Of a stretch of DNA of 64,000 bases, positions 54,064-64,000 are shown in pieces. Every line of letters begins with the position of its first letter. Position 1 is the stretch's first letter. Source of the DNA: Paramacrobiotus metropolitanus (lineage: Eukaryota > Tardigrada > Eutardigrada > Parachela > Macrobiotidae); the NCBI RefSeq assembly GCF_019649055.1, contig NW_026570223.1:1674001-1738000 (forward strand). Direction: 5' to 3'. The notes under the pieces were generated by a model. That model was not told the DNA's origin. It worked only from the letters and a program-made list of their open reading frames with translations, and ran no database searches. The translations under genes were made by a program, and so were the position numbers.

Positions 54064-55920
54064 AAGGTATTTTAAAATTCAAAACCTAACCCGGTCCTTT
54101 TTGACGAACCCGCCATAGTAATGTACGGGGGGTCCGGAAAATTAGACCCGGTGCGGATTTTTTTAACGACCCCCGGGTGGAGCGTTTTTGGGGAACCGTG
54201 ACGTAAATTATAACCCGGTCATTATTGACGAACCCGCCGTAGTAATGTATGGGGGGTCCGGAAATTTAGACCCGGTGCGGATTTTTTTAGCGACCCCCGG
54301 GTGGAGCGTTTTTGGGGAACCGTGACGTAAATTATAACCCGGTCATTATTGACGAACCCGCCGTAGTAATGTATGGGGGGTCCGGAAATTTAGACCCGGG
54401 GCGGATTTTTTCCGCGATCCCCGGGTGGAGCGGTTTTGGGAAACCGTGACGTAAATTATAACCCGGTCATTATTGACGAACCCGCCGTAGTAATGTACGG
54501 GGGGTCCGGAAATTTGGACCCGGGGCGGATTTTTTTAGCGACCCCCGGGTGGAGCGTTTTTGGGGAACCGTGACGTAAATTATAACCCGGTCATTATTGA
54601 CGAACCCGCCGTAGTAATGTATGGGGGGTCCGGAAATTTAGACCCGGTGCGGATTTTTTTAGCGACCCCCGGGTGGAGCGTTTTTGGGGAACCGTGACGT
54701 AAATTATAACCCGGTCATTATTGACGAACCCGCCGTAGTAATGAATGGGGGGTCCGGAAATTTAGACCCGGCGCAGATTTTTTTAGCGACCCCCGGTTGG
54801 AGCGGTTTTGGGGAACCGTGACGTAAATTATAACCCGGTCATTATTGACGAACCCGCCGTAGTAATGTACGGGGGGTCCGGAAATTTGGAACCGGGGCGG
54901 ATTTTTTTAACGACCCCCGGGTGGAGCGTTTTTGGGGAACCGTGACGTAAATTATAACCCGGTCATTATTGACGAACCCGCCGTAGTAATGTATGGGGGG
55001 TCCGGAAATTTAGACCCGGTGCGGATTTTTTTAGCGACCCCCGGGTGGAGCGTTTTTGGGGAACCGTGACGTAAATTATAACCCGGTCATTATTGACGAA
55101 CCCGCCGTAGTAATGAATGGGGGGTCCGGAAATTTAGACCCGGTGCAGATTTTTTTAGCGACCCCCGGTTGGAGCGGTTTTGGGGAACCGTGACGTAAAT
55201 TATAACCCGGTCATTATTGACGAACCCGCCGTAGTAATGTACGGGGGGACCGGAAGTTTAGACCCGGGGCGGATTTTTTTCGCGACCCCCGGGTGGAGCG
55301 GTTTTGGGAAACCGTGACGTAAATTATAACCCGGTCAATATTGACGAACCCGCCGTAGTAATGTAGTTGGGTCCGGAAATTTAAACCCGGGGCGGATTTT
55401 TTTAGCGACCCCCGGGTGGAGCGGTTTTGGGGAACCGTGACGTAAATTATAACCCGGTCATTATTGACGAACCCGCCGTGTTAATGTACGGGGGGTCCGG
55501 AAATTTGGACCCGGGGCGGATTTTTTTAACGACCCCCGGGTGGAGCGTTTTTGGGGAACCGTGACGTAAATTATAATCCGGTCATTATTGACGAACCCGC
55601 CGTAATAATGTACAAAGGGTCCGGAAATTTGGACCCGAGCCGGATTTTTTTAACGATCCCCGGGTGGAGCGGTTTTGGGGAACTGTGACGTTATCTATAA
55701 CACTTTCATTATTGACGATCCCGCCGTAGTAATGTACCGGGGGTACGAAAATTTGGACCCAGGGCTGATTTTTTCAGCGACTTCTGGGTGGAGAAGTACT
55801 GGGGAACGGTAACGTAAAATATAACCTGGTGATTATTGACGAACTAGCAGTGATATACGGGTGGTCGTAAAATTTGGACCCGGGAATTTTGCCCGCTGTA
55901 GGTTGTGGAGTGTTTTATGG
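54064..55920. repeat. 124-bp tandem repeat array, about 15 units
   Basis: The motif TAACCCGGTC recurs at 54211, 54335, 54459 and 54583, a period of 124 bases, and continues to about 55820. Units from 54211 to about 55570 are near identical; the first and last few are diverged. Each unit contains CCGTGACGTAAATTATAACC, with a CRE/ATF-like TGACGTAA, and a GC-rich GACCCCCGGGTGG. There is no long open frame. It is a satellite or regulatory array rather than coding DNA. Confidence 0.85.
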
Positions 55921-56780
55921 TTACGGGTCCCGTAACAGGTAACTTTTACCGTGAAGAGCGCTTGCAAACATTTCTGTTTACTATCAGTAAAATTACCATA
56001 ACCGCAGTACGTTACCCTAGACGAGGATTACTGCTACCATAACAGATTACTTTTTATGCAACGGGTTATCATTACCGAATTTCTATAATAATTAATCCTT
56101 AGGGTAACGGGTTACCGTTACCGCAACCTGTTTTGTAATGGATTACTATGGCGGGATACTGTCATTGAAACCGTTACCGTAATGGAGTACCGTGCATGTT
56201 ATTGTCACCGTTTTGGGTTTCCGCAACCGTTGCTGCTACCCTTTACATGCTACCCTGCTACCCGAACAATCATTTAATTGTTGCTTAAATAAACTTAATG
56301 TAAAAATCCTGAAAAAAGCTAACCTGAAATGGAATTAGAATGACTAACGCTGACTGACGCCGTTATTCATCGAAGATGAACTACAGAAATTCGCGCTCAC
56401 GAGGCTTGCAAGTTACAAATTTATTTAAAGGAGTACGCTTAGAAAGCGCACATTCGAGAATATTAAACAAAAAAGGATTCTAAGGCTTCTGAGTAATTTT
56501 TTGAAATAGTTTTGAAACGTTGCCATAGCAAAACATCTATTTAAGAAACCCAGCGAATTCAGGAGTCATTACTACTATTACTAACATTAACACTGCATGT
56601 GTTACCTGCATTGCCGCTGTTGTTATTCATATTCTGATGGTTCATCGTTGCGCGTTACCGCTACCGGCGTTACCACTCAAACTAAGCGTTATCAGTAATA
56701 ACTGTTACGTTTGCCAGACTGTAACAATGTACAGTAACTGAGTTTGTTTTTGATAGTGTATCATGTCTCGTTACTGTTGA
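55921..56780. repeat. degenerate GTTACC/GGTAAC-rich region
   Basis: Variants of GTTACCGTTACCG and GGGTAACGG recur in both orientations at about 55920-56260 and again at 56600-56720, separated by ordinary AT-rich DNA. No fixed period is visible. It looks like decayed simple repeat. No gene was recognised. Confidence 0.4.
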
Positions 56781-56786
56781 AACTAA

Positions 56787-56850
56787 AGGCGTAGCCGAAG
56801 GCGACGCCAAAACGTGGCGCTAGCGAGCGCAGCAAAACAAGCGGAGCTGG
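56787..56850 (+). repeat. GC-GNA-GC repeat module, diverged copy
   Basis: GGCGTAGCC, GGCGACGCC, GAGCGCAGC and AGCGGAGCT follow one another, then AAGTAAAACA. The same order of motifs occurs at 58076-58150, so this is a diverged copy of that module in the same orientation. Confidence 0.5.
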
Positions 56851-57053
56851 AAGTAAAACAAAAGGGTTCTATGGTTCTGTTAATCTGAAGGTATGTGACT
56901 TTATTGGTCAAATCAAACTTAAGGCAAAATAAAAAAAGAAACAAGAATTACAACAAGAAAATTTCTTTCAGCTTATCAAGGCCTTACATCGTGCCCAGTG
57001 CCCAGCACAGACGCCGCATTACCCCGTTGAACATCTATCGACAAACGCTGACG

Positions 57054-57873
57054 TTAAAACTCATGCGAGCGTGCTTCGCCGGTTTGCTGCTGAAATCTTT
57101 TTCCCAGTTCTTTGGCAATTGCGATTGCTGACGGCCCCCACGGGCCCAGGGTTTCAAAGGCGATTGAAGCGAACAGGTAGCGGCCAACCAGGTACAAATT
57201 CAATCTGGATTTTTTATCCTCTGCTTGCACGGCGGCCGTTCCCGCTGTGATCGAGTTGGCTTTGACATGTATGGCGCAACCGTGTCTACACATGTCACGT
57301 CCCATGCTAGGCACAATCCACGTTTCCAGGCAAATGCCGTGCAGCCGTCCGGACGGCGCTCCGTGGTGTGAGAAGTACCACGAGGCTCCAGTTTTGCAGG
57401 CACGCCGGCAGATATACATGCTCGACAAATGATGCTATTTAATCCGCCGTGACGCGGGTGTCTTCCAGCGGAGAAGACACATGACAGCCCATGATGCCCG
57501 TAACATCTACGCGTTTGAGACATTTGACGCAATCATGAGGTTCGCAAATTGTGGCGCTAAGGCAAAGACCAACACTGATCATGAGTTCGTCGTCTCCCGG
57601 CAGGTTGCCGATGTGGGCGGAAAGTTGTGCGTTTAAACAGATGCCGGCTTCTGGCCTAGACTGGGCAAGCAGGCGTGCTGTGTTGACTTCATCGCCCTCG
57701 AACACCTGCAACAAAGTAGAAAGGGAAACGTTACACAAAGGCATGTCCCACGGCTTTTGAGACTTCCGGAACGCGGGTTCGGGAATTTCAGCCTGACGGG
57801 CTTTCAGTTTCCAGGACTCCACTGCGCCGGCGACGTCGGTAATATCGTGGGTATGGAGCAGCGCGGACAGCAC
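57054..57873 (-). pseudogene. decayed 3' end of a non-LTR-type retroelement (post-RT region)
   Basis: Three overlapping minus-strand frames (57873-57439, 57532-57200, 57428-57054) carry consecutive pieces of one protein. They read WDMPLCNVSLSTLLQ and EPHDCVKCLKRVDVTG, then TTERRPDGCTAFAW and CLAWDVTCVDT, then SIAFETLGPWG and AKELGKRF. This order is known to me from the region after reverse transcriptase in animal retroelements, and RPDG with WDVT resembles a PD-(D/E)XK nuclease. At least two frameshifts and internal stops break it and no RT core is present, so it is a dead fragment. Exact family is uncertain. Confidence 0.6.
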
Positions 57874-58075
57874 ACCGGAAACAGAATTGAATCGAAGTCA
57901 GGAAGGCTGGTAGGGATAATTCTTCTGAACGGCGGATGCCAATTCCATCTCTGCTAACTGGGAGTGTTACTTGACCCCAAGGCGGGAGTCGTTGTGGTTG
58001 GTCCGTACGTTCGAGATTTTTCTTGCAGTTTCACTTAAGCTTTTTGTTACTGTAACGATACGGTCGCATAAACCG

Positions 58076-58170
58076 AAGGCGGAGCCAAAGGCGACGCCGA
58101 GCTGCGGCGCGAGCAAGCGCAGCGCAGCGAGCGGAGCAGCAAGTAAAACGAGCGGATTCTATTGTACTAG
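58076..58170 (+). repeat. GC-GNA-GC repeat module
   Basis: GGCGGAGCC, GGCGACGCC, AGCGCAGCG and AGCGGAGCA occur in order and end in AAGTAAAACGAGCGG. It is related to the module at 56787 and, inverted, to the four tandem copies at 59655-60310. It directly precedes the duplicated 3' cassette. Confidence 0.6.
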
Positions 58171-58171
58171 A

Positions 58172-58350
58172 AGATATGCCGCTAGTTTAGCGTCAACTCG
58201 GTTTCGGTCCGGTTCGGCTCGGTTTCGGTCCGGTTTTCAGTCGAACCGGTTTGGAGCCGATTGAACCGGTTTAGGGCCGAACTGAATTCCCTTTTCTTTT
58301 GTTTATTTTGCCCCACCCTCTTTTTTGTATGAACATGGATGAACATGAAA
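58172..58350 (-). terminator. duplicated 3' cassette of the IAP gene with AATAAA
   Basis: This block is repeated almost exactly at 60315-60540. Both copies lie directly downstream of a leftward gene. It starts ATGCCGCTAGTTTAGCG, continues with CGGTTTCGGTCCGGTT and GAACCGGTTTGGAGCC sub-repeats and ends with a T-rich and CCCCACCC tract. TTTATT at 58302-58307 gives AATAAA on the gene strand, 55 bases after the stop. It is probably a shared 3' untranslated and polyadenylation module. Confidence 0.6.
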
Positions 58351-58361
58351 TACCACACAAT

Positions 58362-59108
58362 CTAACAGAAGAAAGCCCAACACTTATTGAAAATAACACC
58401 CCGACAAATCGGACACAGTAGCAGCTTGCTTGAACATTTTGCGCAGCAAACTAAATGACCGCAAGGTCTAAACATGATTTCAGAATCATTCTCGTAGCAA
58501 ACTTTACAGCTCAACTTCTCTTTGGGATCTTCGGACGGCGTAGCTGGCGGTGCTTTTCGCAATAGCACACAACACGTTGTTTCGGCTTCTTTGCGTTTTT
58601 TCCGAATGTCACTGATGAATGCTAAGCCTTTTGTCTGTATAAGATACGGACACTTTGGGTAAGTCCAAGCGTGCTCCTCCCACGGGACATCGTCTTTCTC
58701 CCAAGCATGTAGTGCACCTCCACAGTGAAAACAGCGTACACGATCATCCCTACCCTCATAATAAAAGCCGGCCGCAGCCATATTTCTGGGATGCTGATGT
58801 TTGTTTGCTGGCCATTCAGCGTAAGTAGCAAAGCGTGCCTTGTAGTCTTTCATTGCCGGTGAAAACGGAAGTAGTATTCTCTCATCTTCGCCCCTTACAC
58901 AGTCTGGACGGGCTAAGCGGTGTCGGTAGTATGGTTTATACCGTGAGTTCACCCAGTCACCCATAATATAGCCACAGTATGCACAGTGAATTTCGTCATG
59001 CACCCCTTGATAATAAAACCCCTGGCTTGCCAATTCTCTAGGGGCGAGCGACTGGTCCGGCCAGTTTTCAAAACTGTTGAAGCGATTGCTGATCAGTGTC
59101 ATATCCAT
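58362..59108 (-). CDS. iap: inhibitor of apoptosis protein, BIR-BIR-RING (virus-like)
   Basis: An intronless gene of 248 codons when started at 59108. Two BIR domains (about residues 9-72 and 92-158) have complete zinc ligands: CAYC with HRLARPDC, and CFHC with HAWTYPKC. A C-terminal RING (CKVCYENDSEIMFRPCGHLVC..CPICRG) ends the protein. This compact layout is that of baculovirus-type IAPs, which block caspases and ubiquitinate targets. The frame is open to an ATG at 59186, but a TATA box and initiator lie inside that extension, so the downstream ATG is the likely start. The gene shares its 3' cassette with the next leftward gene. It may be viral or captured; it looks intact. Confidence 0.88.
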   Translation of the reverse strand: MDMTLISNRFNSFENWPDQSLAPRELASQGFYYQGVHDEIHCAYCGYIMGDWVNSRYKPYYRHRLARPDCVRGEDERILLPFSPAMKDYKARFATYAEWPANKHQHPRNMAAAGFYYEGRDDRVRCFHCGGALHAWEKDDVPWEEHAWTYPKCPYLIQTKGLAFISDIRKKRKEAETTCCVLLRKAPPATPSEDPKEKLSCKVCYENDSEIMFRPCGHLVCCAKCSSKLLLCPICRGVIFNKCWAFFC

Positions 59109-59118
59109 TTTGACAGTC

Positions 59119-59155
59119 AACTGAACACCTGCAATGGGTAGTTGGGGTTTATATA
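59119..59155 (-). promoter_or_regulatory. TATA box and initiator of the IAP gene
   Basis: TATATAAA occupies 59148-59155 on the minus strand and the initiator TCAGTT 59119-59124, with the predicted first base at 59122, 33 bases from the TATA start. The leader to the ATG at 59108 would be 13 bases. This decides the start codon. Confidence 0.65.
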
Positions 59156-59654
59156 GTGTCTTGGGACTGCGGCGATTCAAGACCACACCTCCAAAACAGT
59201 ATGGTTCCCAGCTATTGGATCATTAGTACGAAGGCCAACCCCCTGTTATACCGTAAGGGTAGAGTATTGGTCGATTATGGTGTTACTGCGTACAAGATGG
59301 TTTGCATGGTACAGTATGTACTTTGACACTGGGGCTCTCTGTTTAGTGTCTTTATCGTACAGGTTTAGCCTGAAACTGTATAAATGAACCGTGTTTGCTT
59401 TGTACTAGTACGAATGTTGTGTGTAATCAACTGTGCATGCTTGAGTGTATTGGGATTAGCATTAAACTGTGTTTGTCATCAGTTCTGAGTAAGTTCTGTC
59501 TAATTTGTGTCTAGTACAGACTGTTTTGAAGTTTGAAATAGGGTGTTGTTGCACAAAGCGAGAAACTTCGATCAAGCAATCAAATAATTCGTTTTCATTT
59601 GCAAAATTGATATCTAAATTTCTATGCAGATTGCAACAAAATTTTGAAATAGAA

Positions 59655-60310
59655 AAAATAAATCTATCGTTCTATTTGATGCTTCAATTGCGGCGCCGCT
59701 CGGATTTGCCTTCGGTTTTCCTCGAAACAATAGTTTGCTAGCAAATTTCAAAATGACAACGGAAATTTCGTCCGTAAAAACAATTTTTTTAATGAAAAGA
59801 ACAACGGAATGCTTTTGTTTTAGTTGCTGCACGCTGCGCTGCGCTTGCTTTCGCCGCAGCTCGGCGTAGCTTTTTTCTCCGCCTTCGGTTTCGACTTCTG
59901 TATCAACACGGTAACAAAAAGTTCAAGCGGAACTATAAGAAGAATCTCTTTTAAATAAAAGAGCAATAGAATCCTTTCGTTTTATTTGCTCCTCCGCTCA
60001 TTATGCTGCGCTCCCTCGCGCCGCAGCTCGGCATCGCCTTTGGCTTTGCCTTCGGTTTCGGTGGAAACGGTAGTTTGCTACCGTATAATCATGTAACAAA
60101 AGGGTTAAGCTGAACTGTAAGAAGAATCTCTTCGGAATAGTAGGACAATAGAATCTTCTTGTTTTACTTGCTGCTCCGCTCGCTGCGCTGCGCTTGCTCG
60201 CGCCGCAGCTCGGCGTAGCCTTCGGCTCCGCCTTCGGTTTCCACTTTCGTATCATCACGGTAACAAAAGTTTAACCTGAACTGTAAGGAGAATCTCTTCA
60301 GAACAGCAGT
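59655..60310 (-). repeat. tandem array of about four GC-GNA-GC modules (150-180 bp units)
   Basis: Four units repeat the order: TTTTRTTTGCT, CTCCGCTC, TGCGCT, CGCCGCAGCTCGGCGT, CCTTCGGCTCCGCCTTCGG, a GTAACAAAA segment and AAGAATCTCTT. Their GC cores lie near 59690, 59820-59895, 59985-60060 and 60165-60240. They are inverted relative to the module at 58076. Short open frames here are by-products of the repeats. No gene is supported in 59190-60310. Confidence 0.65.
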
Positions 60311-60314
60311 ACAA

Positions 60315-60540
60315 GAAGATATGCCGCTAGTTTAGCGTCAACTCGGTTTCGGTCCGGTTCGGCTCGGTTTCGGTCCGGTTTTCAGTCGAACCGGTTTGGA
60401 GCCGATTGAACCGGTTCGGAGCCGATTTGAACCGGTTTGGAGCCGAACCGCCTGAACCGGTTTAGAGCCGAACTGAATTCCCCTTTCTTTTGTTTATTTT
60501 TCCCCACCCTCTTTTTTTTGTATGAACACGAATGAACATG
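60315..60540 (-). terminator. duplicated 3' cassette of the ADP-ribosylglycohydrolase-like gene
   Basis: This is the second copy of the block at 58172-58350. It is longer by extra units of the GAACCGGTTTGGAGCC type. TTTATT at 60493-60498 gives AATAAA on the gene strand, and another lies at 60549-60554, just beyond the stop codon. Confidence 0.6.
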
Positions 60541-60562
60541 ATAACAGATTTATTCATGATAT

Positions 60563-61786
60563 TTACAAGTGAAAAAATAAATTATCAGGAACATTGGTAG
60601 CCGGACAGTTGGGCTTCTTACATAAGTGATCCCAACGCGGATCAGAGAGAGGCTCAAAATTTCTAAGTTCGCATTCGCAGTAATAACATTGAACACAGTC
60701 TAGTGAACCAAAATGAAAAAATCCATTTCCAGCTAATTCCATGGGTGAGGGTTTGAGATGTGGCCAACCCCTGAACGACTCCAAACGCGATCCTAAAGTG
60801 CTGTAGTTGCCGAAATCATCAATTTCGCGATCGGTTAGGGTGTTGCTGGCGTGTTCGGCAAGTTTGTCGGCTAGCGTAATACTGTTCTTATAGCCGTCAC
60901 ACAGTTCAAACCACGCCGATGGTATGCTTTTGAGACCGTGCCAAGCTCCGGCAATAGCGCCCGCCAGGGTTGCGATTCCGTCCGTACATCCACCAACACG
61001 TAGTGTAAGCGCCATGGTTGATTCGAAAGCATTTTTAGGCGATAGATCGGCTCCTTTGATCACGCAGTAAATAGCCATAGGTACAGCTTGCAGTCCCGAG
61101 GAATCATTGCCAAGGGCTTTCACCACAACACTTGTCTCCTGAGGCAGCAGAGTTTTTATGTGCACTAATTTTGATTGATACAGCTGAAGGCTAACGCCTG
61201 AGTCACACAGAGTGATTAACATGTCCAGAAACTGTGCGGGAGTAAAGTTGGGATATTGCAATGCTACGGCAATAGCGTAGGCTTGAAGCTCACATGCCCC
61301 GTAAGCTTCCAACGTAGGATGTGTAAGTTCGGCAATGTTACGTACGTTGCGGATCATTATTTCTGTCTGATGTTTGAAGTACAGGGGATACGCTGAAATC
61401 CACGCAGCAGGACCGTATCCTTTTTGGTATACACGTGGTACGATTTTATTCGGCAATGTGTCAAGGGATTCATAATTGCTCCACTTCCAGTGATGTATTA
61501 TATCTTTTAGCTTTCCAAAAGCCGAACGTATGACGGGGTGTGCATTGTAATATGCGTCAACGCATGCACGAGCGGCACTTGCTGTATCATAACCACCGTC
61601 ATTTAACAATGCGTTACCAAGCGCGTTTGTTAATACAGTTTTTTCGCGATGAGAGCGGTAATCTCGAGTATCAACAAACATTTGCGCTACCTTATGGACA
61701 ATACCATTGTATGCCTTCAAAGGAGCGCACAAGCATTCCCCGAGTAGGCCACCGACTAAGCAACCACGAAATTGATCTTTCTCCAT
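60563..61786 (-). CDS. ADP-ribosylglycohydrolase-like protein fused to a C-terminal BIR domain
   Basis: An intronless gene of 407 codons. Residues 1 to about 320 follow the ADP-ribosylglycohydrolase (DraG/ARH3) fold: FRGCLVGGLLGECLCAPL, GYGPAAWISAYPLYF, ALGNDSSGLQAVPMAIYCV and LRVGGCTDGIATLAGAIAGAWHG. The metal ligands of the family look degraded. The TDDT motif is replaced by HREKTVLT, the acidic residue after GDC is lost, and GGDTDTIA reads GGCTDGIA. It may therefore bind ADP-ribose without hydrolysing it. The last 75 residues form one BIR with intact zinc ligands (CVQCYYC, HLCKKPNC). I know of no characterised protein with this fusion. It has its own TATA promoter and shares its 3' cassette with the IAP gene. 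Confidence 0.85.
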   Translation of the reverse strand: MEKDQFRGCLVGGLLGECLCAPLKAYNGIVHKVAQMFVDTRDYRSHREKTVLTNALGNALLNDGGYDTASAARACVDAYYNAHPVIRSAFGKLKDIIHHWKWSNYESLDTLPNKIVPRVYQKGYGPAAWISAYPLYFKHQTEIMIRNVRNIAELTHPTLEAYGACELQAYAIAVALQYPNFTPAQFLDMLITLCDSGVSLQLYQSKLVHIKTLLPQETSVVVKALGNDSSGLQAVPMAIYCVIKGADLSPKNAFESTMALTLRVGGCTDGIATLAGAIAGAWHGLKSIPSAWFELCDGYKNSITLADKLAEHASNTLTDREIDDFGNYSTLGSRLESFRGWPHLKPSPMELAGNGFFHFGSLDCVQCYYCECELRNFEPLSDPRWDHLCKKPNCPATNVPDNLFFHL

Positions 61787-61795
61787 TTTCTTTGC

Positions 61796-61833
61796 AAATG
61801 ATAATTATTTAACGCAACTCCAGCTTTTAAATA
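61796..61833 (-). promoter_or_regulatory. TATA box and initiator of the ADP-ribosylglycohydrolase-BIR gene
   Basis: On the minus strand TATTTAAA occupies 61826-61833 and TCATTT 61796-61801, with the predicted first base at 61799, 34 bases from the TATA start. The leader would be only 12 bases long. Confidence 0.6.
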
Positions 61834-61872
61834 TGGTCAGAAAAAACAGCTAGCCCCCAGTTTGATTTTTGA

Positions 61873-62077
61873 CCAATCACAACGCTCATTTCCAAATATT
61901 TTTTTTGGTTTTCGGAGGTACGTCACAGGCTGTTTGACCAATCAATATGGTTACACAGTGTATGAGGGTGTAGTTTTTTTCGATTTTTCAACCAATCATC
62001 AACATAGTAAACTGTTTCAAGTCTGCCAGTGACGTATGTGTGAAAAAGGCGGAGTTATGCGAGAATTTCCAACCAAT
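61873..62077. promoter_or_regulatory. bidirectional regulatory region with four CCAAT boxes and two CRE-like sites
   Basis: CCAAT occurs at 61873-61877, 61938-61942, 61992-61996 and 62073-62077, all in the same orientation and 54 to 81 bases apart. TACGTCA at 61919-61925 and TGACGTA at 62030-62036 are inverted CRE/ATF-like sites. The region lies between two divergent TATA promoters of the virus-like block and probably drives both genes. Confidence 0.55.
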
Positions 62078-62115
62078 GGGACGAGAGTTTGGCTTCCTCG
62101 GAAACAATCCGCGAG

Positions 62116-62152
62116 TATAAAAGCGACGCGGCTGAGCTTTTCCAAATCATTC
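62116..62152 (+). promoter_or_regulatory. TATA box and initiator of the PC4-like gene
   Basis: TATAAAAG occupies 62116-62123 and TCATTC 62147-62152, with the predicted first base at 62149, 33 bases from the TATA start. This places the transcript start after an upstream in-frame ATG at 62036 and supports the ATG at 62204. Confidence 0.7.
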
Positions 62153-62203
62153 TGCAAAAAAGTTGAGAGCAAGTTCTATCATCATAATATCACGAGAGCA
62201 AAA

Positions 62204-62650
62204 ATGGATTTCGCACGTATTTTGGATGTTGTCGGTGATCATGACGGCTACACTGTATACAAAGTCAATAGTGTGGTAAGTCTGTTCTGGAATGCTAAAG
62301 AAGTACGGGCATTTCTTGTGTTCGAAGCGAATGCGGATGCTGAAGGCTTGCGTAAAGCATGGAATAAAGGGATCCGATTCGGATACAATGAAATTACCGA
62401 ACTAATGAAGATCTTGAAGAATGGACATCTGAAAGACACGCTGGATCACGCAGCATCCGAAGGCAAACAGGAAAAAATGAAATTCGATGGCCCCGCCTGC
62501 CTGGAGTTGACTCTGAAGGTGCACGAAAAGTACGGGCGTACGATCAGGTTTTCTCAACCAGGACGCTCTGTTCAACTGCCATACATGGGATTTATTGATG
62601 TGGCCCGAATCCTGGACGATAGTTTTAAAGCGCAAGCCCTTATTGTTTAA
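62204..62650 (+). CDS. small protein of the virus-like block, possibly two PC4/Sub1-like domains
   Basis: A 148-codon intronless frame starting MDFARILDVVGDHDG. I do not recognise it with certainty. Two halves seem to follow the same plan, a curved beta region then a helix: YKVNSVVSLFWNAKEVRAF with KGIRFGYNEITELMKIL, and LELTLKVHEKYGRTIRF with RSVQLPYMGFIDVARIL. This order resembles the single-stranded DNA-binding coactivator PC4 (Sub1), where a beta sheet is followed by KGISL and a helix. If right, it would be a transcription or replication accessory protein next to a TBP gene. The upstream TATA and initiator decide the start. The PC4 link is inference by eye only. Confidence 0.5.
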   Translation: MDFARILDVVGDHDGYTVYKVNSVVSLFWNAKEVRAFLVFEANADAEGLRKAWNKGIRFGYNEITELMKILKNGHLKDTLDHAASEGKQEKMKFDGPACLELTLKVHEKYGRTIRFSQPGRSVQLPYMGFIDVARILDDSFKAQALIV

Positions 62651-62783
62651 CTGCGCTTTTCGTTTTTAACATTTTAAAATTGTTGTTGTTGTTGTTATTC
62701 TTGTTTATTACCTGTTAACTACCTTGTTATGCAAAAAAAAAGGCTGAAAAACGCCGTTATTTGCGACAGTCTCAGCAGTGAAG

Positions 62784-62791
62784 TATATAAA
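62784..62791 (+). promoter_or_regulatory. TATA box of the TBP-like gene
   Basis: TATATAAA lies 28 to 40 bases before the candidate start codons at 62819 and 62831. An initiator-like TCAGTC is at 62825-62830, spaced further than in the other genes. The TATA box lies inside the longer open frame that starts at 62729, so that ATG is probably not used. Confidence 0.5.
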
Positions 62792-62818
62792 GCCTTCTTG
62801 CTGACACTGTTGCAAGTA

Positions 62819-63403
62819 ATGCGTTCAGTCATGGAAATCCACAACGTTATCCTGGCGGTGCAGTTCAACGAGGAAGTTGATCTTCAGCAAGTCCTAGAAG
62901 TTTTCGGGAAACATGCTACGAAGGTGAAAAATTTTAACGCAGTCAACATCAGACTAATAGGGCAGTCACCTTCATTCTGCCAGATTTTCCAAAATGGCAA
63001 GGCAATCGTAATAGGCGGTAAGTCCGTTGAAGAATCGAACGGGCTATTAGAACAGTATTTGCGAATGTTGATTGTAAATTGTATCGACGTTACTATTAAG
63101 GAGCGCTTTGTGGCAAATATAGTCTGTACGTACGCTTACAAAGAAATAATAAATTTGAACAAGCTGTATAGCCAAATTTTAAAACAAAAGCCAACGGGTA
63201 TCGCATTCTTCTATGAACCTGAGCTGTTTCCAGCCATCAAACTACGGTTCCCATTATTGAAAACTACCGTTAACGTTTTCCATACTGGAAAGTGTGTAAT
63301 TCTGGGAGCGAGATCACTGTTGCAGATTCAACGCACAATTGAACAAACTAAAAACCTCCTTGAAAATTACACCACTTCGGTGTCGAAAAAACGAGAAATC
63401 TAA
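62819..63403 (+). CDS. divergent TATA-binding protein of the virus-like block
   Basis: The frame is open from 62729, but the start is likely the ATG at 62819 or 62831, giving about 190 residues, the size of a TBP core without N-terminal arm. The two TBP repeats are visible. Repeat 1 runs MEIHNVILAVQFNEEVDL to CQIFQNGKAIVIGGKS. Repeat 2 runs FVANIVCTYAYKEIINL to YEPELFPAIKLRF and VNVFHTGKCVILGARS. The four phenylalanines that kink the TATA box in TBP seem present (NFNAV, CQIFQ, ELFPA, NVFHT). The sequence is far too divergent to be the host TBP. It probably directs transcription of the element from its own TATA promoters. Base composition is more AT-rich than the host exons. Confidence 0.78.
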   Translation: MRSVMEIHNVILAVQFNEEVDLQQVLEVFGKHATKVKNFNAVNIRLIGQSPSFCQIFQNGKAIVIGGKSVEESNGLLEQYLRMLIVNCIDVTIKERFVANIVCTYAYKEIINLNKLYSQILKQKPTGIAFFYEPELFPAIKLRFPLLKTTVNVFHTGKCVILGARSLLQIQRTIEQTKNLLENYTTSVSKKREI

Positions 63404-63493
63404 TCATTTCAGAAACACCATTCGAGAGTTTTTGTGATCGAATATACTGTGAAGTGTTCGATAGTTAGCAGACTAAGTCAGGAGAAATTTAAA

Positions 63494-64000
63494 ATGGAAA
63501 AACTGAGTTTTGATTTTCGATTTAAAACTCCGTGCACCATTTACATTTCCGGGCCAACGATGTCGGGAAAATCGACTTTTACAATGAAACTTTTGCAAAG
63601 TCTTACGGAAAGCTTTAATCCACCACCAGTAAGAATAGTATATGCTTACGGTACGTGGCAAAATGCCTTCCAGGGTTTTGATAAAAATATTGAACTTATC
63701 CAGGGGCTTAGACCCATCTTAGAAGATGAAAATTTTTTTGACAAAGACGTTCCGAGTCTGCTAGTGTTAGATGATTTAATGGAAGAAATTGCTGGAACAC
63801 CAAAGTGTTCGACGATTTTTACTCGTGACGTTCATCACAAAAATGTTTCTGTAATTTTCATTTCTCAAAACTTATACAAACAAGAAAGGAGCATGCGTGA
63901 CATTGCTTTGAATTCTCAGTACTTGGTAATTTTTAAATCAGTTCGCGATGTTCAGCAAGTTAAAACACTTGCACGTCAGTTAGGTATGCCACATATGCTG
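63494..64000 (+). CDS. viral packaging-type P-loop ATPase, truncated by window end
   Basis: An intronless frame of at least 169 codons that runs off the right edge. Walker A is SGPTMSGKSTF near residue 19 and Walker B is SLLVLDDLM near residue 91. VSVIFISQNLY looks like a sensor strand. The segment VRIVYAYGTWQNAFQGF and the late RDIALNSQYLVIFKSVRD are signatures I associate with a family of ATPases encoded by integrated DNA viruses and Maverick/adintovirus-like elements in animal genomes, usually taken as A32/FtsK-HerA genome-packaging enzymes. The family assignment is from memory and cannot be checked here. Its presence argues that the block is a virus-like element and not a set of isolated captured genes. 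Confidence 0.75.
   Translation, partial: MEKLSFDFRFKTPCTIYISGPTMSGKSTFTMKLLQSLTESFNPPPVRIVYAYGTWQNAFQGFDKNIELIQGLRPILEDENFFDKDVPSLLVLDDLMEEIAGTPKCSTIFTRDVHHKNVSVIFISQNLYKQERSMRDIALNSQYLVIFKSVRDVQQVKTLARQLGMPHML

Follow-up and report, generated by a model that had tools for sequence, protein, structure and literature searches.

A Maverick/Polinton-type element with a diverged TBP gene in the tardigrade Paramacrobiotus metropolitanus

Maverick/Polinton elements and animal adintoviruses possess a B-type DNA polymerase (PolB), an rve integrase, a double-jelly-roll capsid protein, an ATPase, a protease-like gene, terminal inverted repeats and a 6-bp target duplication. The genes described for Drosophila-associated adintovirus 1 (14.5 kb) are PolB, integrase, capsid, protease and FtsK, and the main text of that paper mentions neither TATA nor inhibitor of apoptosis (PMC8363768). 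TATA or TBP is likewise not mentioned in the papers on adintoviruses and capsid evolution PMC11071296, PMC11071308 and PMC11244446, and the available part of PMC8905726 does not link Maverick/Polinton to inhibitor of apoptosis. In the literature searched for adintovirus or Polinton together with TATA-binding protein, no Maverick-borne TBP was found. Maverick has been named among the tardigrade transposons, in an account whose accessible part does not include Paramacrobiotus (PMC11071193).

TBPs are known from large dsDNA viruses (PMC7221094, PMC11410667). According to PMC7221094, these proteins have kept the nucleic-acid-binding positions and diverged in the TFIIB contacts, and most such viruses have a TFIIB-like protein. 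Sporadic TBPs are assigned in PMC10675990 to putative mirusvirus-type elements. The herpesvirus TBP mimic ORF24 of KSHV, which acts at late promoters, has four phenylalanines and a more polar DNA face; according to PMC12529657 it has no equivalent of the TFIIB glutamates, makes direct contact with Pol II and works together with five other viral proteins. The engineered triple mutant TBPm3 is described as reading TGTA (PMC4466886). Here we analyze a stretch of 64,000 nucleotides from Paramacrobiotus metropolitanus (the window), at the right end of which lies an element that resembles Mavericks and adintoviruses in the features named above, although its ATPase and protease are assigned by weak matches, and that differs from them by additional genes for an IAP, an ARH-BIR fusion, a PUR-like protein and a TBP.

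Gene content, insertion and rearrangement

Judged from its sequence, the gene block at positions 58172 to 64000 is the left part of a Maverick/Polinton-type, adintovirus-like element of about 23 kb (Table 1). The initial annotation had suspected a DNA virus or Maverick-like element from five genes with open frames and had surmised that capsid and polymerase genes might follow. All five ORFs are real and open, the calls of IAP, ADP-ribosylglycohydrolase-BIR fusion and TBP-like protein agree with the Pfam matches, and to the right of the window we found a double-jelly-roll capsid gene and PolB as well as an integrase and a protease-like gene. The integrase matches rve with 4.5e-14 (Pfam). A relative 68% identical to the capsid gene was modelled as a double jelly roll (pLDDT 88.6), with the capsids of iridovirus, PBCV-1, Sputnik and mavirus as best matches (E 1.7e-15 to about 1e-13). 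The match of the adenain-like protease is weak and under the cut-off (Peptidase_C5, 0.028), and a 159-aa ORF at the penton (minor capsid) position matched no Pfam or NCBIfam family. For the packaging-type ATPase the ORF stands and the family assignment is less firm, since the matches are weak (Pox_A32 0.0029 and FtsK 0.02 in Pfam, both under the cut-off; PHROG ATPase 3.9e-5). The ORFs scanned with Pfam included no recognisable TFIIB-like gene, and a search of viral_contigs for the element TBP and capsid confirmed none. An ordinary host gene cluster is ruled out by the capsid, the integrase and the terminal repeats.

Table 1. Positions of the element features and of the interrupted repeat in the window
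Feature	Position	Strand	Remarks
Repeat X, first part (unrelated repeat hit by the insertion)	54707..58168	+	copies on C5, C43, C76, C8, C47
Target-site duplication TGTACT, copy 1	58163..58168	+	four X copies without the insertion match the joined flanks
Terminal inverted repeat, IAP end	58169..58348	+	lies at the right end in other copies
IAP segment	58169..59518		moved from the right end by inversion
IAP, two BIR and RING	58362..59108	-	Pfam BIR 3.5e-37
TATATAA box	59149..59155	-	41-47 bases upstream of the IAP start codon
Repeat X, second part	59519..60313	-	carried along by the inversion
Target-site duplication, copy 2	60308..60313	-	AGTACA on +
Left terminal inverted repeat	60314..60541	+	
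ADP-ribosylhydrolase-like domain (probably inactive) fused to BIR	60563..61786	-	Pfam 5.1e-29 and 6.1e-14
TATAAAA box before the PUR-like ORF	62116..62122	+	12/12 copies examined, at -81 to -97
PUR-like ORF, 148 aa from the probable start	62204..62650	+	open frame from 62036
TBP-like protein, 224 aa	62729..63403	+	Pfam TBP 1.4e-23, two stretches (two TBP repeats)
Packaging-type ATPase, 211 aa in all	63494..64000	+	ends just right of the window; weak A32/FtsK matches

The immediate surroundings of the block differ from what had been assumed. Its left neighbour is not a host gene; it is repeat X, with tandem copies in this region from about 54087. Nor is the block free of gaps, since the second part of repeat X separates the IAP segment from the remaining genes. 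In the copies of repeat X on the contigs given in Table 1 both parts are contiguous, the second being inverted. When the X flanks of the element are joined, they match four other X copies, which represent empty sites, with 100, 100, 99.2 and 95.9%. Among five insertions compared at both ends, four have terminal repeats and 6-bp target duplications (C199 has none). The terminal repeats, the search for which had been suggested by the initial annotation, are present together with a target duplication and an empty site, and these features argue for a true integration, in a contig of 3.82 Mb.

The IAP segment sits at the opposite end in all five close copies, and an IAP that is a separate host gene was rejected on this ground. 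One insertion and one inversion account for the order between 58 and 61 kb to the base. There is a small chance that this arrangement is instead an assembly error, given that the order found here (C3) is unlike that of the other copies and that repeats lie near the breakpoints; this exact fit speaks against it, as do the target duplication and the empty sites, and an error of this kind would leave the identity of the element untouched. The description of the block as intact-looking fails beyond the window. With its IAP end inverted and PolB split over two ORFs in different frames (DNA_pol_B_2, 8.5e-22 and 1.2e-17) the element is not intact; some other copies have PolB open frames of 998-1392 aa.

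IAP, ARH-BIR fusion and PUR-like ORF

The IAP would serve to block the death of the host cell. The fusion protein aligns with the ADP-ribosyl-acceptor hydrolase ARH3 over residues 5-309 (E 8.8e-24) and differs from it by the fused BIR and by the replacement of five of the six metal ligands: the positions T76, D77, D78, D314, D316 and T317 of ARH (PMC8141533) are R, E, K, C, D and G in the window protein. D78 and D314 are lost in all seven ARH-BIR fusions, and D77 is a conservative Glu in six of them. An active ADP-ribose hydrolase was rejected on these grounds. The hydrolase domain has very probably lost its activity and, next to the BIR, might act as a decoy or serve in binding.

The third gene had been called a possible PC4-like protein. 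Its ORF is real, but the identity with PC4 could not be upheld: neither PC4 nor PUR was found by sequence, there being no match in Pfam, PHROG (E<=0.2) or the PDB sequences, and the predicted fold resembles Pur-alpha most closely, ahead of Whirly and PC4/Sub1 (poor model, pLDDT 57). The model suggests that the protein is more probably PUR-like. The open frame begins at 62036, and translation probably starts at 62204: among 30 relatives, residues 1-48 form a separate match piece in 16 and have no match in 3, while the 11 in which they match in frame with the rest speak against this start. None of 60 candidates outside the P. metropolitanus genome was a homologue. The TBP gene is next to the PUR-like ORF in 81 of 98 PUR-like loci, in a conserved order with the ATPase, and profile comparison places the ORFs preceding TBP in L080, L081, L084 and L086-L091 in another family. 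The PUR-like protein may bind to the single strands of open promoters or of replication intermediates.

Copies and conserved residues of the element TBP

Element-type TBPs are found at at least 197 loci of the P. metropolitanus genome and fall into at least 14 lineages (<80% identity). As host reference we used the canonical TBP at C4:406165-406662, the best Pfam TBP match. The 14 lineage representatives are 22-33% identical to it, which rules out a recent retrocopy of the host TBP. An element TBP lies within 25 kb of 57 of 72 PolB loci (the remaining 15 have no listed TBP nearby), and an element ATPase or PolB is at most 900 bases away at 14 of 20 diverged TBP loci. A word-based search, limited in its reach, turned up just two proteins resembling the element TBP among 99 candidates.

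In all five unbroken comparisons with the next family the dN/dS of TBP was 0.14-0.19, indicating purifying selection. Stops break many of the copies, as would be expected of functionless passengers spread by element copying alone; the low dN/dS values and the intact frames in lineages less than 30% identical to host TBP make such an origin highly improbable.

Among 44 element TBPs the intercalating residues which bend the DNA are all four Phe in 28, and in 13 the only exception is a Tyr at position 116. The TFIIB-contact glutamate E188 is retained in 42 and both E186 and E188 in 36, although only 8 of the 14 lineages retain both. The element TBP resembles ORF24 in its phenylalanines and its more polar DNA face, and by keeping E188 it departs from both ORF24 and the TBPs of large dsDNA viruses, with which it shares the virus-borne setting and the retention of nucleic-acid-binding positions. 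DNA-contact positions have nevertheless changed: L114Q and a replacement of L205 occur in all 44 proteins, T215L in 41, and V203 is replaced by Thr in 40 and by Arg in 4. We matched the element residues to what we take to be positions 194, 203 and 205 of yeast TBP. Five of the 44 proteins combine V203T with L205V, that is two of the three changes of TBPm3; the Ile-to-Phe change I194F, and with it the full triple, is absent among the 44.

A possible role of the element TBP in transcription

In the best reading the element TBP would be a factor that directs TFIIB and Pol II of the host towards the promoters of the element, with a DNA specificity that we infer. The bending residues and, for the most part, the TFIIB contacts are kept, while the minor-groove face is altered and more polar. 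Host TBP would first read the genes with TATA boxes (the PUR-like/TBP pair, IAP and PolB); in a second step the element TBP would bind non-canonical element promoters and recruit host TFIIB and Pol II to further genes, which are probably structural. An element with such a two-step use of host Pol II and its own TBP, rearranged by one inversion, appears to us a fairly likely account and the best explanation of the whole.

Retained TFIIB glutamates beside altered DNA contacts would also suit a protein that acts mainly on the host, competing with host TBP or tying up TFIIB and so weakening transcription in the host, without any particular function at the promoters of the element. We regard this as unlikely, for the bending aromatics, kept in nearly all of the element TBPs compared, would be superfluous in a pure TFIIB sponge, and the conserved gene order with the PUR-like ORF and the ATPase does not favour it either. 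The position beside a possible single-strand-binding protein and a packaging ATPase could point to replication or packaging, with TBP bending the termini; a function of this kind, rather than transcription, seems still less likely, as it would need no TFIIB contacts and E188 is nearly always present.

More tentatively, and with somewhat less than even confidence, we propose that the steering factor is a natural altered-specificity TBP which reads its own promoter class and still borrows host TFIIB and Pol II. This single-protein system, often accompanied by the PUR-like protein, would be retained in at least 14 diverged lineages, which together occupy nearly 200 loci or more in the genome of a single tardigrade. 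If true, a compact Maverick with TBP would show how one protein can suffice for a small nuclear element to make a promoter class for itself. Some of the substitutions fall on positions that are changed in TBPm3, and the element TBPs may therefore offer many diverged sequences of natural origin for the long-studied question of which TBP residues set promoter choice. Our data also suggest that part of the many BIR and TBP genes in the P. metropolitanus genome is element cargo, which bears on how gene-family expansion or horizontal transfer is counted in tardigrades.

The promoter boxes fit the two steps in part. TATAAAA precedes the PUR-like/TBP pair in all 12 copies examined and the ATPase in none; no shared late-gene motif was found. 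In the present element 5 of 13 genes have a TATA-like box within 150 bases upstream, including the integrase (-118) and the capsid gene (-21), and TATAAAA stands ahead of TBP itself in 4 of the 12 copies, so that the split into early and late genes is not clean. Upstream of the ATPase, 65-67 bases before the gene, 7 of the 12 copies have a TTTTTG tract, which is unexplained.

Gene content and selection

All five genes that the initial annotation had claimed in the window (C3:1674001-1738000, the genome comprising 533 contigs and 169.8 Mb), namely an IAP, an ARH-BIR fusion, a PUR-like ORF (then called PC4-like), a TBP-like protein and a packaging-type ATPase, are present with open frames. It had also advised looking for viral hallmark genes to the right, and these were found there (L009, L010): in order we find small ORFs, an integrase (rve match, 4.5e-14), a 159-aa ORF, a 448-aa capsid protein, a protease-like ORF (weak Peptidase_C5 match, 0.028) and PolB. 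The latter lies on the opposite strand from the preceding genes and is split into two ORFs in different frames; in some other element copies the PolB frames are open over 998-1392 aa. The annotation had correctly recognised the nature of the block, a virus-like element, subject to the corrections that follow.

Capsid homologues of Paramacrobiotus metropolitanus also occur on contigs C1 and C31, and several relatives carry the NCBI name 'F54H12.2-like'. For a relative with 68% identity the predicted model (pLDDT 88.6, from an alignment of 45 sequences headed by that relative) gave double-jelly-roll capsids as top solved-structure matches. Two metagenome proteins, P0005 and P0006, are 60-61% identical to the capsid protein; their contigs of 25.8 and 12.4 kb are possibly related elements or viruses.

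Pairwise comparison of the element genes with the next family gave a dN/dS of 0.03 for the PUR-like ORF in six of six loci (L020, L022, L023, L024, L027, L033), 0.14-0.19 for the TBP (5/5 unbroken comparisons) and 0.06-0.08 for the ATPase (4/4 unbroken comparisons). Near-identical copies (L014, L018, L019, L036) gave noisier values of 0.07-0.16, 0.20-0.37 and 0.03-0.92, respectively, and dS was saturated for most comparisons with a third family.

Termini, insertion and inversion

The terminal repeats, likewise suggested as a check, were found together with 6-bp target duplications; the element termini read AGAAGATATGCC... At the C199 copy both ends were compared and no target duplication was found.

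Target duplications (6 bp) flanking element copies
Contig	Duplication	Remark
C3	TGTACT	
C151	TACTAC	
C31	CATAAT	
C70	GGTATA	left repeat truncated; read by eye

Genome DNA searches with the left and right sides as queries showed that in all five close copies (C7, C151, C70, C199, C31) the IAP segment, 58169-59518 in the window, lies at the right end in opposite orientation; the C7 copy is without the other element end. In C3 this segment is on the left, with one part of an unrelated repeat, X, on either side of it. When the X flanks are joined through a single TGTACT, the resulting sequence agrees with X elsewhere in the genome, in four copies, at 100% (120 bases), 100% (119), 99.2% (120) and 95.9% (122, two gaps), and the breakpoints, 59518/59519 and about L011:644, correspond to X interior in those four copies. 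The arrangement is therefore, as judged from sequence, that of an element inserted into X, with a single later inversion that moved the body and part of X across. The element totals about 21.8 kb + 1.35 kb. Since the alignment of the two C3 terminal repeats (228 columns) contains 5 mismatches and 2 gaps and the dS of the C151 copy to C3 is 0.056-0.086, the insertion is fairly young. A tandem array with a copy spacing of 124 bases (window 54087-55884) overlaps the start of X.

An altered TBP and its distribution

Residues were counted, in yeast numbering, in 44 element TBPs, a set in which many sequences are close copies of one another. Kept are the phenylalanines F99 (43), F190 (42), F207 (44) and F116 (30; Tyr in 14), as well as N159 (42), N69 (35; His in 8), P187 (44) and the TFIIB-contact glutamate E186 (36, each together with E188). 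Changed are L114 to Q in all 44, T215 to L in 41 and T124 to N in 27 or I in 16. At the positions which we take to be those changed in TBPm3, an engineered altered-specificity TBP (I194, V203, L205), I194 is retained in 2 of 44, V203 became T in 40 and R in 4, and L205 became N in 22, V in 9, K in 8 and M in 5. Clustering at 80% identity left 14 representatives, with L114Q in 14, V203T in 11, T203 with V205 in 4, E188 in 13, both glutamates in 8, and Phe (6) or Tyr (8) at position 116.

TBPm3 combines Ile-Phe, Val-Thr and Leu-Val changes and recognises TGTA (PMC4466886), and KSHV ORF24, which recognises TATT, requires four phenylalanines and extra asparagines (PMC12529657). The Val-Thr and Leu-Val pair of TBPm3 is found jointly in 5/44 element TBPs. 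The acidic TFIIB contacts of large-virus TBPs are variable, and most such viruses have their own TFIIB-like protein (PMC7221094), whereas E188 is kept in 42/44 element TBPs. From the residue pattern and these comparisons we infer that the element TBP reads DNA differently from the host TBP and that use of host TFIIB would be retained, at least where both glutamates are present. The general kind of element is already known; an altered TBP across a whole family is the part that specialists would not expect.

Excluding the host gene (C4:406165-406662), element-type TBPs occupy at least 197 distinct loci, a lower bound on places, other element genes having been checked at part of them. Among the matches listed, 57 of 72 PolB loci have a TBP within 25 kb (15 do not), 58 and 74 of the 197 TBP loci lie that close to PolB and BIR, respectively, and 75 of 133 distinct BIR loci (from the 150 matches listed, whole genome) have a TBP within this distance; by chance about 2% would be expected for TBP near PolB and about 6% for BIR near TBP. 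The IAP family may therefore partly be element cargo. Within 900 bases on each side of 20 diverged TBP loci, element ATPase or PolB was present at 14 and neither at 6. In a tree of 18 sequences and 173 columns the element TBPs separate from the yeast, archaeal and host TBPs (support 100) and form two groups (support 100 and 61). Two close TBP-bearing copies, at C13:232501 and C13:242006, are oppositely oriented, with about 9.5 kb between them. In other element families (L080, L081, L084, L086-L091) a different ORF of ~150-170 aa immediately precedes the TBP; no Pfam match was found in those scanned.

Proposed mechanism and promoters

Element genes with a TATA would probably be transcribed via the host TBP, after which the element TBP would recruit the host's TFIIB and Pol II at non-canonical sites. 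Single strands would be held by the PUR-like protein, and the IAP and ARH-BIR proteins would keep the cell alive. What the sequences show is the anatomy, the selection and the residue pattern, and the promoter part is inferred. A shared late-gene motif was looked for before the element genes and none was found. Of 12 copies compared (L013-L042), 7 carry a TTTTTG tract upstream of the ATPase start, at a constant distance of 65-67 bases.
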